Assembly: GCA_028282325.1 (NCBI GenBank)
Contig: JANQID010000061.1
Coordinates: 1 to 64,000 of the forward strand
Direction of reading: 5' to 3'
Length of the DNA stretch: 64,000 nucleotides
From: Chloroflexaceae bacterium
GTDB lineage: Bacteria > Chloroflexota > Chloroflexia > Chloroflexales > Chloroflexaceae
A program made the position numbers and the translations under genes. Under the pieces are notes generated by a model. The model did no database searches. It was not told where the DNA came from and saw only the letters and a program-made list of their open reading frames with translations. Below, piece after piece: positions 39,152 to 47,637 of this stretch. Positions within the stretch are counted from its first letter, which is position 1. Each line of letters opens with the position of its first letter.

Positions 39152-39511
39152 CTAATCAATGACGTAGAGCAAGGAACCGCTATCCTGTAAAAGTAACACC
39201 ACAGCTTCGCGTCGCGGATTGTAGGATCGCAGCAGCTCAAGAGCTTCTCTCGGCCAATCGGGATTGGGCAGCTTGGCCGGAGCGTACGCGATGGGGAGGT
39301 TTCCGGTGGCACTGCGCAGATCGACGCCCCGCAGATCGATTTTCAGCAGCCCTCGTCCAGACTGAGCGCGGCCTGTTTTGGCAAGCGCCTTCAACTGTGT
39401 GCTCAATATTTGCACATAGCAATCTGAGATATCGACCGGGTCGGATTGGGGATCATCAAGCAACTGGCGCAGACGAATGAGATCCTGGCGTCGTTGGTCA
39501 TTCTCCTTCAT
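39152..39511 (-). CDS. Hypothetical 119-residue soluble protein
   Basis: No family recognised. The first 45 residues are charged and helical (MKENDQRRQDLIRLRQLLDD). The second half has a strand-rich stretch (GRGLLKIDLRGVDLRSATG, later EAVVLLLQDSGSLLYVID). AAGGAGATATC before the ATG is a very good ribosome site, so it is expressed. It is transcribed on its own, away from the membrane-protein gene at 39676. Confidence 0.7.
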   Translation of the reverse strand: MKENDQRRQDLIRLRQLLDDPQSDPVDISDCYVQILSTQLKALAKTGRAQSGRGLLKIDLRGVDLRSATGNLPIAYAPAKLPNPDWPREALELLRSYNPRREAVVLLLQDSGSLLYVID

Positions 39512-40309: not shown

Positions 40310-41854
40310 TTATCCGCTCACCGATTTGTCGTCATCCTCGCGGAACAGATCGCTGATGCGTTCGATCTCGCTGGGGAAGACCTGCATGAACTGCCCGGAG
40401 AGAATGCCCGATATGTTACGGAACGGCTTGCCGATATGCATGCCAGAGCCGTCAATCGAAAACTCACGAATATCTTTATCGTGCGCCGACCCGCGCATCT
40501 TCAGCACGGTCAGGCCACGCCGCATTTCGCCATACAGCTCGACATAACGCAATAGGATAATCGAGTCGGTAATCGTTGAGATATGCCCCTCGGTGATCGA
40601 CGAACCGCCCAGCAGTGTCGGCGTCGTCGAAGTGTATAGGCCGGCGACTTCCTGGTGCTTGATGAATGAGGTGATGCCGATGACGAACTCGCGGAACCCC
40701 TTGATCGTGGAGACGCGTTCGAGCGCCGAGAGGCTGTCGATCGCTACCCGCTGCGGCTGGAATTCGTCAATCTCATCTTTCATCGAAATGAGCTGATCTT
40801 CCAGGCTTGCGACTTCAGGATACTTGCAGACGACCCTAAGCTTGCCTTCGCGCTCCATCTGCTCGAAATCAATGCCCCATCCGATCGCGTTGCGGAACAA
40901 CTGATCCCGACTCTCTTCGAACGCAAATAGCAAGGAACGCTCGTTGCGCAGCGCGCCCGAGGCCATAAAGGTCGTCGACATCAACGTCTTGCCTGTACCG
41001 GTCGCTCCTGAGACCAGGACGATTGAGTCGCGGAAGAAGCCGCCGCCGCACATTCGGTCCAACTCGGTACTACCTGAACTAATGCGTACATTTGAAGAAC
41101 GCTGCTCAAGCTCAATCGCTGAGAGCGGAATAACGACGATACCTTGCCGTGGAATGACGGTGAACGGGAAGCTGCCTTTCTGATGCGATGTACCCCGGAA
41201 CTTGAGAATTTCGACCGTACGGCGGCGCTTCTCTTCCTCAAGCAAGTTACGCAAAATGACGACATCGTCTGCGACGAATTCCTCAACGCCATAGCGGGCA
41301 ATCTCGCCATACTCCTGGGTGCGTTCGCCGGTCAGCACTGCGGTGACCCCCATCCGCTTGAGAGCCGAGACAATCCGGAAGAGTTCGTTGCGCACTGTCA
41401 CCGTATCGGTGAGTCGAGTGAGCACAGCGCCCAGCGAGTCCATCGAAACTCGTTTCGCATTGACGCTCTTGATAGCATGCTCCACTCGCGCCAGAAGCGC
41501 GCCCAGGTCGTATTCGCCGATCACTATGGCTTCATCATTATTAAACTGTGGTGAAGCATCAACAAAAACCCACTTGCTTTCTTTTTCCCAGCGCTCGATA
41601 TCCCAGCCAAAGCCGCGCATATTCCTACGGAGATCGGCGGGCGACTCTTCAAAGGTGATAAAAACCCCGGCTTCATTCGAATGGACGATGCCTGACGCCA
41701 AAAACTGAGCAGCGAAAACAGTTTTTGCACTACCGGCAGTCCCTGAGATCAATGTGGTGCGACCTTTGGGCAATCCCCCATTAGAGATATGATCAAAGCC
41801 GGGTATTCCCGTGAGAAGTTTTTCGATATAGCTTGGTTCCTGTTCCAAAGTCAT
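40310..41854 (-). CDS. kaiC: Circadian clock-type ATPase/autokinase KaiC
   Basis: A full two-domain KaiC of 514 residues. Walker A motifs are GTAGSAKT (38-45) in CI and GATGTGKT (283-290) in CII. Catalytic glutamate pairs are E69-E70 and E313-E314. The three phosphorylation residues of cyanobacterial KaiC (T426, S431, T432) are matched by T421, S426 and T427 in SSITEGHISTITD. The C-terminal A-loop, which KaiA grips, is kept as ISGILSG (481-487) with a tail of 27 residues behind it. The protein thus looks able to run a phosphorylation cycle, not just to hydrolyse ATP. Its ATG overlaps the kaiB stop (ATGA), so KaiB and KaiC are made together. Confidence 0.97.
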   Translation of the reverse strand: MTLEQEPSYIEKLLTGIPGFDHISNGGLPKGRTTLISGTAGSAKTVFAAQFLASGIVHSNEAGVFITFEESPADLRRNMRGFGWDIERWEKESKWVFVDASPQFNNDEAIVIGEYDLGALLARVEHAIKSVNAKRVSMDSLGAVLTRLTDTVTVRNELFRIVSALKRMGVTAVLTGERTQEYGEIARYGVEEFVADDVVILRNLLEEEKRRRTVEILKFRGTSHQKGSFPFTVIPRQGIVVIPLSAIELEQRSSNVRISSGSTELDRMCGGGFFRDSIVLVSGATGTGKTLMSTTFMASGALRNERSLLFAFEESRDQLFRNAIGWGIDFEQMEREGKLRVVCKYPEVASLEDQLISMKDEIDEFQPQRVAIDSLSALERVSTIKGFREFVIGITSFIKHQEVAGLYTSTTPTLLGGSSITEGHISTITDSIILLRYVELYGEMRRGLTVLKMRGSAHDKDIREFSIDGSGMHIGKPFRNISGILSGQFMQVFPSEIERISDLFREDDDKSVSG

Positions 41855-42150
41855 CGCACGAGATCTCCTTCGATGTATGGTGGCAAATTCAATGCTGTTA
41901 AAACGTCGGCTATATTGCTCAGATCACCAATGACCCGCCGACGAGGAAGCGGTTCGTCTTTAATAAGCGTTGGCGTCGCCAGAATTTTTTCTATCTCCGC
42001 CTGTTGTGGATCCGCGAGCACATCGATTACAACAAGCTCGCACTGGTAATCCTCCAGCTCTTGCTCGCAGATTCGACGTAGATTTGCAATTGCTCGTTCG
42101 GATCGCGACGTGCGACCGGCAATGAACAACCGTAACGAAATCTTACTCAC
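41851..42150 (-). CDS. kaiB: Clock protein KaiB
   Basis: A 99-residue thioredoxin-like KaiB. The conserved block VIDVLADPQQAEIEKILATP, then TL and later RRVIGDLSN, is almost the cyanobacterial sequence and includes the ATPT cis-proline region tied to fold switching. AGGAG lies seven bases before a GTG at 42150, which I chose; a TTG at 42168 overlaps the upstream stop and would add six residues. The gene starts 14 bases after the KaiA-like gene stop and overlaps kaiC by 4 bases. KaiB competes for and binds phosphorylated KaiC (family knowledge). Confidence 0.95.
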   Translation of the reverse strand: MSKISLRLFIAGRTSRSERAIANLRRICEQELEDYQCELVVIDVLADPQQAEIEKILATPTLIKDEPLPRRRVIGDLSNIADVLTALNLPPYIEGDLVR

Positions 42151-42164
42151 ACGTGCGCTCCTAC

Positions 42165-43805
42165 TCAACGACGAGATTGGTTACGTGATTCGGCAGGTCC
42201 TCGATTCACAAGCCCTTGGGCGCTCAAGACGTATGATCGGTAAAATGAAGTCAGATTACCCATTAATTCAAGCACCAACACCCGGCCCTCTTCCATATAT
42301 ACCTGAAGCTTTTGCGGAGTCGCCGTAGCGCTTTGCTTGCGAATAGCGGTAAGGTGCAACTCGACGACATCGCGGGGAGAACTTTGGACTTGCCCCATCA
42401 TACGCGCAAGATGCTCAATTTCCGGTTCCAGGCTGCCTTCGATTTTGTATGCGCGCAATTTCAGAGCCTTTTCCAACATTGCAGTATAGTTATCAACGGC
42501 TGCATTGAACGCGTCCGGGTCGCGCTCGCGCAACGACCCTAAGCCGGCGGGACGCACCGTGGCTTCTGTTGCTGGAAGCGCTGAGAAGTGCTCGAATGAC
42601 TTCATCTCGCGCTCTTGCTCCAACATTCGTTCACGCAGCGCTTCCGCTTCGGCACGCGCTTTGGCGGCTCGTTTCTGGTCAGTAATGTCGCTGTGTGCGA
42701 TGACCAACCCGGGTTGCCGATCGCTTTGCAACGGTACGACGCGCATGAGGAACCAGTGATCGCCGAGAGGCGAGCGGTGAGCATATTCCAATTCAAAAGA
42801 CGGCTGCTCTCCATTCAACACGGTATGGATCCCTTGCAATGCTTCCGGCGCTTGCCCCATAGATTCTTTTGACGCATTGCGAAGAGCCTCAAAGTAATTT
42901 GCTCCGACCCCGGTATGCTCTTGCAACGTGTCGCCGCTTTCGGCAGTGAATATAAGCCAGGCTTCGTTGACGGCGACAATCGTACCATGCTCGTCAACCA
43001 CGGCGATGTGCGTGGTCAGCGAATTCAGGATGGCCCGGCTGAACGCCTCGGCGTCACGCAGGGCTTCCTGGTTGCGCTTGCGCTCGGTGATGTCACGGAG
43101 CGAAACAACGTATGCAAGATCGTTTTCCCAGTGTGTTTCGACAACGCGCATCTCAGCGACAAAGATTTCGCCGTCATTGCGCAAAATATCTAACTCGGTT
43201 CGGTTGCCGTCAATAATCGGAAACCCGAACGCTTGCCCCAGGAGCCGCTCCGCCGATCGTCCAAGCAACGTTTCAGCGGCCGGATTGACGAACTGCACAT
43301 GCCCTTCGCGGTCAACGACAATAATGCCATCGGCATTCTTATTGATAATCGTAAGCAGGCGGGCTGTACTTGCCTCGGCCTGTGCAATTGAATAACGTAG
43401 CTTCTGCTGTATTCGATGGCGATCAAGCGCGTTGCGAATAATTTGTACTGTGCTAGGGCTGCCGATGCCGATGGCGTCTCTGATAAGATAATCCTGAATG
43501 CCCCAGCGAAACGCCTGGTGGATAAGCGGATCTTCCTCGTTTTCAACCAGCGCAATCACTGGAATGTGCGAAGCTTGCGTCTGGACGAATGACGGAATAT
43601 CCGTTTCGTTCTCGATATCCTGATCCAGACTCAGAACAACGGCCGCTATCAAGTCTTCTGAGAGATATTGTTGCGCTTCGGAGACATCTCGAACGGTTAC
43701 AAGACGAAAGCGAGGAGCCTCAATTTGCGACAATACCTCTTGCAGTTGATTGATAACGGATTTATCAACGCCTATCAGCACGAAACTATGTGCTGCTTCG
43801 GTCAT
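42165..43805 (-). CDS. Pseudo-receiver/PAS/PAS protein with KaiA/RsbU-like C-terminal domain (KaiA-like candidate)
   Basis: A 546-residue protein, first gene of the kai operon. Residues 1-130 have a receiver-like pattern, but the acidic pair is missing (FVLIGVDKS) and the phospho-Asp position is Ser (AAVVLSLDQ), so it is a pseudo-receiver. Two PAS domains follow (about 145-245, with GHVQFVNPAAETLLGRS; about 252-378, with GTIVAVNEAWLIF and HSDITDQKR), then a coiled coil (378-405). The C terminus (about 425-525) is a helical bundle with RDVVELHLTAI and LVLELMGNLTSFYRSYV, resembling the C-terminal domain of KaiA and the related RsbU N-terminal domain. No kinase, phosphatase or cyclase domain is present. 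GGAG precedes the ATG at 43805; an open frame extending to 44474 is not supported. Function as a KaiC activator is an inference. Confidence 0.75.
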   Translation of the reverse strand: MTEAAHSFVLIGVDKSVINQLQEVLSQIEAPRFRLVTVRDVSEAQQYLSEDLIAAVVLSLDQDIENETDIPSFVQTQASHIPVIALVENEEDPLIHQAFRWGIQDYLIRDAIGIGSPSTVQIIRNALDRHRIQQKLRYSIAQAEASTARLLTIINKNADGIIVVDREGHVQFVNPAAETLLGRSAERLLGQAFGFPIIDGNRTELDILRNDGEIFVAEMRVVETHWENDLAYVVSLRDITERKRNQEALRDAEAFSRAILNSLTTHIAVVDEHGTIVAVNEAWLIFTAESGDTLQEHTGVGANYFEALRNASKESMGQAPEALQGIHTVLNGEQPSFELEYAHRSPLGDHWFLMRVVPLQSDRQPGLVIAHSDITDQKRAAKARAEAEALRERMLEQEREMKSFEHFSALPATEATVRPAGLGSLRERDPDAFNAAVDNYTAMLEKALKLRAYKIEGSLEPEIEHLARMMGQVQSSPRDVVELHLTAIRKQSATATPQKLQVYMEEGRVLVLELMGNLTSFYRSYVLSAQGLVNRGPAESRNQSRR

Positions 43806-44729: not shown

Positions 44730-45884
44730 ATGCCTCATGATGCTCAACCTCGTGTTCTGATCATCGATGACGATGCCAACGTGAGAGAGCTCGTTGACAC
44801 GGTGCTGAGCCACGCCGGCTATAAAGTCATCAGCGCCCAATCGGGGGAAGAAGGTTTTGGCCAGGCGATTCGCACTCCGCCCGATCTGATCATCTCTGAT
44901 GTCGTGCTTCCGGGAATCGATGGATACACGCTCTGCAAACGCTTGCGTCAACATCCCGCGACGCGTTATGTGCCCATTCTGATGTTAACCTCGCAGGATG
45001 ATATCAGCGCCAAGGTGGCCGGCTTTGAAGCCGGCGCGAATGATTACATCACCAAACCATTCGCTCCCCAAGAGCTGCCCTATCGTGTGAAAAACCTTCT
45101 GGCGCGCGTGCCGGCGCCAAGTGCGGATGATGCATCATCCAAGGGGCGGGCTGTTTTAGTGTTTGGAACGAAGGGCGGCGTCGGCAAAACGACATTATCG
45201 GTAAATCTCGCGCTGGTGTTTCGGCTGCGCACTAAAAAACGCGTTGCTCTCTTCGACGCCGATTTCCATTTCGGTGACATCAGCGTCCATCTCAACCTAT
45301 CGCCTACCCGCACCGTTATTGATCTCGTTGAGCGCATTGAGGATCTTGATCAAGATTTGCTGAGTCAGGTGATGATGCCGCACCCTTCCGGCATTCACGT
45401 ATTGCTCAGCCCGTTTCGCCCTGAAGAAGCCGAGCTGGTCAAAGCTGAGCACGTCGGCTTGTTGATGGAATCGCTGGTGCGCAATTATGATTATGTTGTT
45501 GTAGACTGCCAGGCAAGCTATGATGAGCGTATGCTGGTGGCTCTGGAACATGCCGATACAATTTTGCTTGTTGTGACGCCTGAGATCGGCCCGCTCAAGA
45601 ATACGAGTCTGTTTCTGGATCTCGCCGAAAAGCTGGGGTTGTCATCAAAACAAATCTACATTGTCCTGAATCGCGCTAACTCAAATGTTGGCATTGATAT
45701 CGCTGAGATCGAGCGGGCCCTGAAACATCCCGTCTCATTCCAGATTGTCAGCGGCGGTCGTCCGGTTGTTTTCAGCGCCAACCGCGGCGTACCGTTGATC
45801 GCATCTCAACCCAAACATCCCTTTGCGCAACAAGTTATTGGTGTCGCCGATAGTTTGATCAAGACCTTGACGCTTGATAAATAG
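44730..45884 (+). CDS. Response regulator fused to a MinD/ParA-type ATPase (CpaE-like)
   Basis: A 384-residue protein. The N-terminal receiver (1-120) is intact: acidic triad IIDDD (residues 12-14), phospho-acceptor D57 in IISDVVLPG, and the K of ITKPF. It is joined to a deviant Walker A ATPase: FGTKGGVGKTTLSVNLAL (near residues 145-162), then LFDADFHFGDISVHL and VVVDCQ. This matches CpaE/TadZ proteins that place machines such as pili at a pole. No pilus genes are near, so a role in positioning or signalling beside the Kai operon is open. GGAG lies before the ATG; the next gene follows after 73 bases. Confidence 0.85.
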   Translation: MPHDAQPRVLIIDDDANVRELVDTVLSHAGYKVISAQSGEEGFGQAIRTPPDLIISDVVLPGIDGYTLCKRLRQHPATRYVPILMLTSQDDISAKVAGFEAGANDYITKPFAPQELPYRVKNLLARVPAPSADDASSKGRAVLVFGTKGGVGKTTLSVNLALVFRLRTKKRVALFDADFHFGDISVHLNLSPTRTVIDLVERIEDLDQDLLSQVMMPHPSGIHVLLSPFRPEEAELVKAEHVGLLMESLVRNYDYVVVDCQASYDERMLVALEHADTILLVVTPEIGPLKNTSLFLDLAEKLGLSSKQIYIVLNRANSNVGIDIAEIERALKHPVSFQIVSGGRPVVFSANRGVPLIASQPKHPFAQQVIGVADSLIKTLTLDK

Positions 45885-45957
45885 TGATGTATCGTTAATG
45901 TTCTCTCCTCATCGTAAAAACCGTCGGCAGCAGCGATACGGATAGAGGCAAGACGTC

Positions 45958-47637
45958 ATGTCTGACCACACTGCATTCGCTTCTTTTCAAGATCAATTTG
46001 CTGCGCTGCGCCGCGAGTTTGAGCAGCAGCTTGAGCAGGATTTGCTTGATATCGAAGCAACCTGGCGTGATGTACTTGCTGATGATACAAATCATGCAGC
46101 CGCTGTCCGATTGCATCAGCAGGTTCACAAATTGACCGGAACCAGCGCAACGTTTGGTTTTGTTACACTGAGCGGCATTTCCCGCGCGCTAGAGAGGTTC
46201 TTGCGTGCGAGCATTGAGGACGTGACCGGGTTTGATGCAGACCAGCGCATGCGGATTGAAACCGATATTGAATCGTTGAAGCTCGCTGCATGTCTTGGCG
46301 AGCCTGTCACCTCTGATAATACCGAAGCTTTTCCCCCTCCTGTCAATAGTAGCGTGCAGCAGGAGGTCGACAGAAACCGGACCATCTTCCTGATCGAAGA
46401 TGACACGATGCTGATCCGCGAGTTGTCGTTGCAGATTAGCTATTTTGGCTACTCCGTCCAGGCTTTCAGCCAGCTTTTCGATCTCCAGACTGCGGTTCAG
46501 CAAGTATGCCCGGCTGCGGTCATTATGGATATTATCTTTCCGGAAGGCGATCTTGCCGGCGCCGATGCGATACGCTCTCTACGCAATGAAATGCACGCCG
46601 ACCTGCCGGTGATCTTCATCTCTTCGCGAAGCGATTTCATTGCTCGGTTGCACGCGGTTCAAGCCGGTGGAAGCGCCTACTTCACCAAACCAATTGATAT
46701 TAGCGGGTTGATCGATAAGCTGGATACGCTCACGGCTCACAAAATTCCAGAACCGTATCGCATCTTGATTGTCGAGGATGATTCCTCGCTGGCGATGTAC
46801 TACGACTTGATTCTGCGCCATGCGGGAATGCTTACAACGATTGTCACCAATCCGATGCAAGTGATGGAGCCGCTCAGCGATTTTCGGCCCGATCTTATCT
46901 TGATGGATGTCTATATGCCAGTCTGCAACGGTCTTGATCTGGCTGCGGTGATTCGCCAGGAAGAGACCTACGTCAGTATTCCAATCGTGTTCCTCTCCAG
47001 CGAGACCGACACCGACAAACAACTGGCCGCGATGAGTCTGGGCGGCGATGACTTCCTGACCAAACCCATTCAACCCGATCACCTGGTGTCATCGGTATTG
47101 GCCCGCGCCCAACGCTCACGTATTCTGCGCTCGTTTATGGTTCGCGATAGCTTGACCGGTCTATATAATCATACACGGATCAAAGAGTTGTTGAATATTG
47201 AAATCACGCGTGCGCTGCGCCAACGGACGCCGCTGACATTTGCAATGATTGATATCGATCATTTCAAGTCGGTCAACGACACATACGGGCATTCCGTCGG
47301 GGATCGCGTACTGAAAAGCCTGGTGCATATGTTGCAACAGCGGCTGCGCAAGACTGATATTATCGGGCGTTATGGAGGCGAGGAGTTTGCCATCGTGCTG
47401 ACAAACATTGATACAGCGAAAGCGTATATAATCCTCGATGAGCTGCGTGAGCAATTTGCTCGGCTCCGCCAACATTATGGCAAAGATACATTTTCGGTAA
47501 CATTCAGTTGCGGTCTAGCTTCCCTCGCGGATTATCGGGATGCTATTGCTATCAGCGATGCTGCTGATAAGGCGCTGTACGAAGCCAAGCGGAGTGGCCG
47601 CAACCGCGTTGTCGTGGCCACCGAGTACACCATGTAA
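45958..47637 (+). CDS. Hpt-REC-REC-GGDEF diguanylate cyclase
   Basis: A 559-residue multi-domain signalling protein. An Hpt domain carries H57 in VHKLTGTSATFG. Two receivers follow, each with an Asp acceptor (VIMDIIFPEGD and LILMDVYMP) and a TKP lysine loop. The C-terminal GGDEF domain is active-type: DSLTGLYNHTR, IDIDHFKSVNDTYGH, and GRYGGEEFAIVL, with an RxxD inhibitory site (RKTD) five residues before GGEEF. It should make cyclic di-GMP from two GTP, with product feedback. The Hpt domain means it can also take phosphate from a kinase; the GAF kinase at 50502 is the only one nearby. It follows the receiver-MinD gene and is probably in its operon. Confidence 0.93.
   Translation: MSDHTAFASFQDQFAALRREFEQQLEQDLLDIEATWRDVLADDTNHAAAVRLHQQVHKLTGTSATFGFVTLSGISRALERFLRASIEDVTGFDADQRMRIETDIESLKLAACLGEPVTSDNTEAFPPPVNSSVQQEVDRNRTIFLIEDDTMLIRELSLQISYFGYSVQAFSQLFDLQTAVQQVCPAAVIMDIIFPEGDLAGADAIRSLRNEMHADLPVIFISSRSDFIARLHAVQAGGSAYFTKPIDISGLIDKLDTLTAHKIPEPYRILIVEDDSSLAMYYDLILRHAGMLTTIVTNPMQVMEPLSDFRPDLILMDVYMPVCNGLDLAAVIRQEETYVSIPIVFLSSETDTDKQLAAMSLGGDDFLTKPIQPDHLVSSVLARAQRSRILRSFMVRDSLTGLYNHTRIKELLNIEITRALRQRTPLTFAMIDIDHFKSVNDTYGHSVGDRVLKSLVHMLQQRLRKTDIIGRYGGEEFAIVLTNIDTAKAYIILDELREQFARLRQHYGKDTFSVTFSCGLASLADYRDAIAISDAADKALYEAKRSGRNRVVVATEYTM

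Follow-up and report, generated by a model that had tools for sequence, protein, structure and literature searches.

In the window, by which we mean the whole stretch of 64,000 nucleotides that was analysed, a kaiA3-like gene is the first of three genes and is followed by kaiB and kaiC (Table 1). An AGGAG-like site is found directly 5' of its ATG start. Because the ORF coordinates place overlaps of 4 nt both between this gene and kaiB and between kaiB and kaiC, translational coupling of all three is probable. The genome carries type-II reaction-centre genes and for this reason the host, a relative of Chloroflexus, is presumed to be an anoxygenic phototroph. Divergent genes are located upstream (44730-47637, +), for a receiver plus ParA/MinD-type ATPase and for an Hpt-REC-REC-GGDEF protein, and downstream of kaiC lies an ORF of 119 aa without family match (39152-39511, -).

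Table 1. Features of the Kai operon in the window, and loci of the PAS-PAS-...-GGDEF(-EAL) genes in other Chloroflexaceae
Feature	Coordinates	Strand	Basis or remark
kaiA3-like gene (degenerate receiver - PAS - PAS - coiled coil - KaiA3-type C-terminal domain)	42165..43805	-	546 aa
Receiver-fold domain, residues 1-143; Ser59 at phospho-Asp site, Asp14 retained	43377..43805	-	receiver HMM, AlphaFold, structure comparison
PAS domain 1, residues 148-241	43083..43364	-	Pfam, AlphaFold model
PAS domain 2, residues 260-379	42669..43028	-	Pfam, AlphaFold model
Long helix, putative coiled coil, residues 375-407	42585..42683	-	AlphaFold model
KaiA3-type C-terminal four-helix domain, residues 425-534	42204..42533	-	profile search, predicted fold
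Signature E-L-H ... R-V-x8-L-x3-Y-R, residues 482-523	42237..42362	-	pattern search
kaiB	41851..42168	-	ORF coordinates, Pfam; sole KaiB found in genome
kaiC, KaiC3 type; two KaiC ATPase domains, T-E-G-H-I-S-T phosphosite segment, A-loop, C-terminal tail	40310..41854	-	sole KaiC found in genome
PAS-PAS-...-GGDEF(-EAL) loci	L042:6247-8823, L041:106-2688, L035:612-3173, L038:1-2205		
PAS-PAS-...-GGDEF(-EAL) loci, continued	L046:1-2373, L050:3-2114, L045:1-1797, L034:6550-7998		

With Pfam the whole protein gave two PAS domains and a receiver match below threshold; no family was matched in the last 150 residues and no output domain (kinase, DNA-binding, GGDEF) was recognised, the last point being one that the sequence-only reading of this gene had anticipated. 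The order of two PAS domains, coiled coil and C-terminal bundle which that reading proposed was recovered in the full-length AlphaFold model, where a beta-alpha-5 receiver (up to residue ~143), two PAS folds, the long helix and the bundle follow one another, the placement of the domains being unreliable in a model built on an alignment of 15 rows (mean pLDDT 81, pTM 0.36). The modelled receiver resembles those of PleD and NtrX (Z 15-16). It had been described as a pseudo-receiver with neither phospho-Asp nor acidic pair, of which the first part is correct, as Ser59 occupies the site, but of the acidic pair only the Glu is lost (V13). Serine is also present at the aligned position in some cyanobacterial KaiA3 members, and the KaiA of Synechococcus likewise begins with a pseudo-receiver. 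An HMM of cyanobacterial KaiA3 receivers scores the domain at E 1e-10, a value that ordinary receivers in the window nearly reach. No cofactor signature was identified in the PAS pair, and its tuning by redox or light is a guess.

The affiliation of the C-terminal domain was assessed with a profile, A1, made from the alignment of 22 Chloroflexaceae C-terminal domains and searched against 339 genomes of the cyanobacterial phylum. Thirteen residues are invariant in the 22 sequences, among them the VELH histidine and the Tyr-Arg of the last element. Of the 339 genomes, 27 gave a match, in 20 cases at E<=2e-40 (the best reaching 3e-48), and all 20 strong loci encode a protein of ~295 aa composed of a receiver and the C-terminal domain, with kaiB as the next gene. 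This is the published plan of KaiA3, and on these sequence matches the domain is assigned to the KaiA3 type. In a tree of the C-terminal domains the window protein falls among the kaiB-linked members of Chloroflexota. PAS proteins with a KaiA3-type C-terminal domain were also seen in small-genome members of the cyanobacterial phylum (L209-L212, also L152-L155), with no kaiB or kaiC recognised around them by the queries used.

Koebler et al. 2024 (PMC11372060) describe KaiA3 as a receiver joined to a KaiA-like C-terminus and report it outside cyanobacteria, Chloroflexus and Roseiflexus included, with kaiA3-kaiB3-kaiC3 synteny, so that the earlier idea of an unreported third Kai component outside cyanobacteria does not hold. 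In vitro the Synechocystis protein (Sll0485) binds to KaiC3 and increases the level of KaiC3 phosphorylation, and KaiB3 favours dephosphorylation (PMC11372060). With Sll0485 the window protein shares the family of the C-terminal domain, the N-terminal receiver, the kaiA3-kaiB3-kaiC3 gene order and a KaiC3-type partner. It differs in having a Ser in place of the phospho-Asp, in the PAS pair and coiled coil that separate its receiver from the C-terminal domain, and in its anoxygenic phototrophic host. The insertion of two PAS domains departs from the two-module plan of the described KaiA3 members, and the protein is for this reason regarded as a variant of KaiA3 and not as an ordinary member. 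Such a PAS-bearing KaiA3 looks like an undescribed variant, no description of it having been found in the Kai literature searched. Dvornyk and Mei 2021 (PMC8113500) report kaiABC operons in a few non-cyanobacterial records, with no PAS, and cite the sensing of redox state (quinones) by Synechococcus KaiA via its N-terminal domain. In the main text of PMC11372060 the PAS-bearing form is unmentioned (the word PAS occurs 0 times). The genome that we take to be C. aggregans has a stand-alone gene for receiver and domain at a distance from kaiBC, and the gene that precedes kaiB encodes the PAS-PAS-domain form. As the main text of PMC11372060 calls C. aggregans the exception to the kaiA3-kaiB3-kaiC3 order, this suggests that the PAS form was left out of the KaiA3 count for that species.

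The sequence-only reading had also likened the C-terminal region to canonical KaiA, on account of two elements, RDVVELHLTAI at residues 478-488 and LVLELMGNLTSFYRSYV at 510-526, which are indeed at these positions. The predicted structure of the domain (pLDDT 89) agrees with that likeness. In Foldseek, ranks 1-11 were all KaiA C-terminal structures (E 0.05-0.28, probability ~1, TM to 0.69 by target). With VIA-align rows 1-8 were KaiA, at rmsd 2.6-3.7 over 90-103 residues and Z 10.5-11.0, which is within the range for which the tool itself warns on helical bundles. The domain is thus predicted to have the four-helix fold of the KaiA C-terminus. In the structure alignments the domain is ~11-16% identical to canonical KaiA, which has no PAS pair. 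Moreover, PF07688 does not match the protein; on cyanobacterial KaiA3 this model scores no more than 16.5-17.7 bits, below its cut-off of 22.2. No KaiA was retrieved when the domain was searched with phmmer and as a profile against PDB sequences, which gave chance matches only. Alignment of the domain family to KaiA with hhalign brought the E-I-H and Y-R elements into register with a score of 19.5. This score was reached in 2 of 300 column shuffles, but it is not significant against the other controls, being reached in 53 of 200 block shuffles while the reversed alignment scored 19.3, and it is not taken as proof. The pattern [ED][ILVM]H-x(20-30)-R[LVM]-x8-L-x3-YR, drawn up after inspection of the data, is present in 83/88 KaiA and 94/108 KaiA3-family sequences and in 0/3062 other ORFs. 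Its spacing from E-H to R is constant within each group and one residue apart between them (24 in KaiA, 23 in the KaiA3 family), the KaiA version reading E-[IL]-H ... R-L-x8-L-x3-Y-R. From sequence alone the tie between the KaiA3-like family and canonical KaiA is weak; the two also have in common the first place in the operon.

The KaiC encoded in the window is of the KaiC3 type: it is 69-72% identical to the KaiC proteins encoded at cyanobacterial kaiA3 loci, and 51-56% to canonical KaiC1, also where that KaiC1 comes from a kaiA3-bearing genome. It retains the T/S/T phosphosites as well as the A-loop and the tail. The KaiC3 of two cyanobacteria and two archaea were phosphorylated without KaiA (PMC5520375), and because of this the KaiC of the window might need no activator.

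The distribution was surveyed in 41 Chloroflexaceae genomes searched with the C-terminal domain and KaiB. Domain and KaiB occur together in 33 and are both absent from seven; KaiB alone is present in one and the domain alone in none (Fisher p 3.6e-7, or 3.8e-4 when counted by genus, kinship being handled at genus level only). In 33/33 genomes a copy of the domain lies <=1 kb from kaiB, by coordinates read by eye. The one genome with KaiB and without the domain (G030, C509:1288-1530) is 88% complete and gave no reaction-centre match. The operonic form consists of receiver and domain in two genomes and of receiver, two PAS and domain in four, the window included, and in the remaining 27 it has two PAS and the domain, the receiver being gone (part of these were checked in the full locus, and in one, G027, the gene is split across contig ends). 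PAS-bearing proteins are thus the operonic form in about 31 of the 33 genomes. The sequence-only reading had proposed a search for this domain order beside kaiBC in other Chloroflexota; in the sister family and in other Chloroflexota the operonic form is a plain receiver with the domain. In the C-terminal-domain tree, which was made by a quick method and has many weakly supported forks, the large PAS-PAS group is the sister of the window protein (SH-aLRT 96). As the window protein has kept its receiver, it appears to be an intermediate between KaiA3 and the PAS-PAS form that lacks one. The remaining three receiver-PAS-PAS proteins sit elsewhere on the tree, as does another PAS-PAS group, and, for this reason, a single origin of the PAS-bearing form and several origins are both compatible with it.

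Taken together, we consider with good confidence that the gene encodes a protein of the KaiA3 lineage in which a tandem PAS sensor has its place between the receiver and a KaiA-type C-terminal domain. Its best reading is that of an environment-gated KaiA3 which would activate the cognate KaiC. By analogy with the biochemistry of KaiA and KaiA3, the C-terminal domain would dimerise and grip the C-terminal tail of KaiC, which would promote autophosphorylation at the Ser/Thr of the CII domain, with KaiB opposing. The architecture suggests that the PAS pair and the degenerate receiver, joined by the coiled coil, may tune the C-terminal dimer, and an internal signal could thereby set the phase or the level of KaiC phosphorylation directly at KaiA.

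The C-terminal domain could instead dock on KaiC or on KaiB-KaiC, with the PAS-receiver part relaying the state of the clock and KaiC not being stimulated. We regard this as unlikely: the fourth gene of several Chloroflexaceae operons, PAS-PAS-GGDEF-EAL, has a similar PAS pair, which means that the PAS domains may contact partners, and KaiC3 proteins can be phosphorylated without KaiA as said above, but the protein lacks an output domain of its own and its gene occupies the place of kaiA, the studied KaiA3 being a stimulator of KaiC3 (PMC11372060). A bundle of the RsbU/RsbR type, belonging to a stressosome adaptor that acts on a switch kinase and is near kaiBC by accident, is very improbable. 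RsbR-type N-terminal domains have a similar helical-bundle fold and come next after KaiA in the comparison (3zta Z 10.3, 2bnl Z 8.6), and RsbU is absent from that list, an absence which is not counted as excluding it. Against this stand the lack of a sequence match to these proteins, with no RsbU_N, C-terminal PP2C phosphatase or STAS domain found by Pfam, a different gene neighbourhood, the direct membership in the KaiA3 family, and the constant vicinity of the domain to kaiB and its absence where KaiB is absent. Nor did Pfam recognise the HisKA/DHp or HATPase domains of a histidine kinase, with which the C-terminal fold also disagrees; the fold comparison that the sequence-only reading had proposed for this region ended with KaiA first and RsbR-type domains next. 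Still less probable is a decayed and inactive fusion from a hybrid kinase, with a non-functional bundle. The receiver without phospho-Asp and the missing enzymatic domain would fit such a remnant, but the frame is open, with a ribosome-binding site and the overlap with kaiB, and the invariant residues of the C-terminal domains speak for conservation.

Within the reading of an environment-gated KaiA3, it is conceivable, though doubtful, that Chloroflexaceae possess a true KaiABC oscillator in which KaiA is the environmental sensor, its tandem PAS module setting the clock, and to which the PAS-PAS-GGDEF-EAL protein encoded beside kaiC in relatives links c-di-GMP. If true, anoxygenic phototrophs outside cyanobacteria would own a clock in which a single protein combines input and core. 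Most of the Chloroflexaceae sampled have, in their kai operon, two classical sensor domains in the input slot of KaiA. Timekeeping in non-cyanobacterial phototrophs is an old question which now becomes approachable with three proteins, and an entry point for the signal is indicated.

In many Chloroflexaceae the gene 3' of kaiC encodes a PAS-PAS-...-GGDEF(-EAL) protein (Table 1) with a PAS pair similar to the one in the KaiA3-like protein, an indication that the Kai system has a branch to c-di-GMP. No PAS-PAS-GGDEF gene follows kaiC in the window genome, where the best match to that protein is to the PAS domains of the kaiA3-like gene. The Kai operon of genome G005 (L032) has KaiA3 between two receiver-PAS-histidine kinases (L032:905-2401 and L032:5239-6747). 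Their receivers resemble KaiA3 receivers and one of their PAS domains is 54% identical to PAS1 of the window protein, so such a kinase is a possible source of the PAS insert. Two genomes have a second, stand-alone gene for a receiver and a KaiA3-type domain (G000:C25, L220:11687-12643; G006, L219:8194-9111). The C-terminal domain is common to these and the window protein, whereas their receiver looks phosphorylatable, a PAS histidine kinase adjoins and there is no kaiBC nearby. They were rejected as the operon's KaiA because of this location, and possibly provide a two-component input into KaiC. In addition to the operonic kaiB, several Chloroflexaceae carry KaiB-like genes in tandem pairs at other sites (G036:C132:4208-4801, G006:C1:1687526-1688051 and others).
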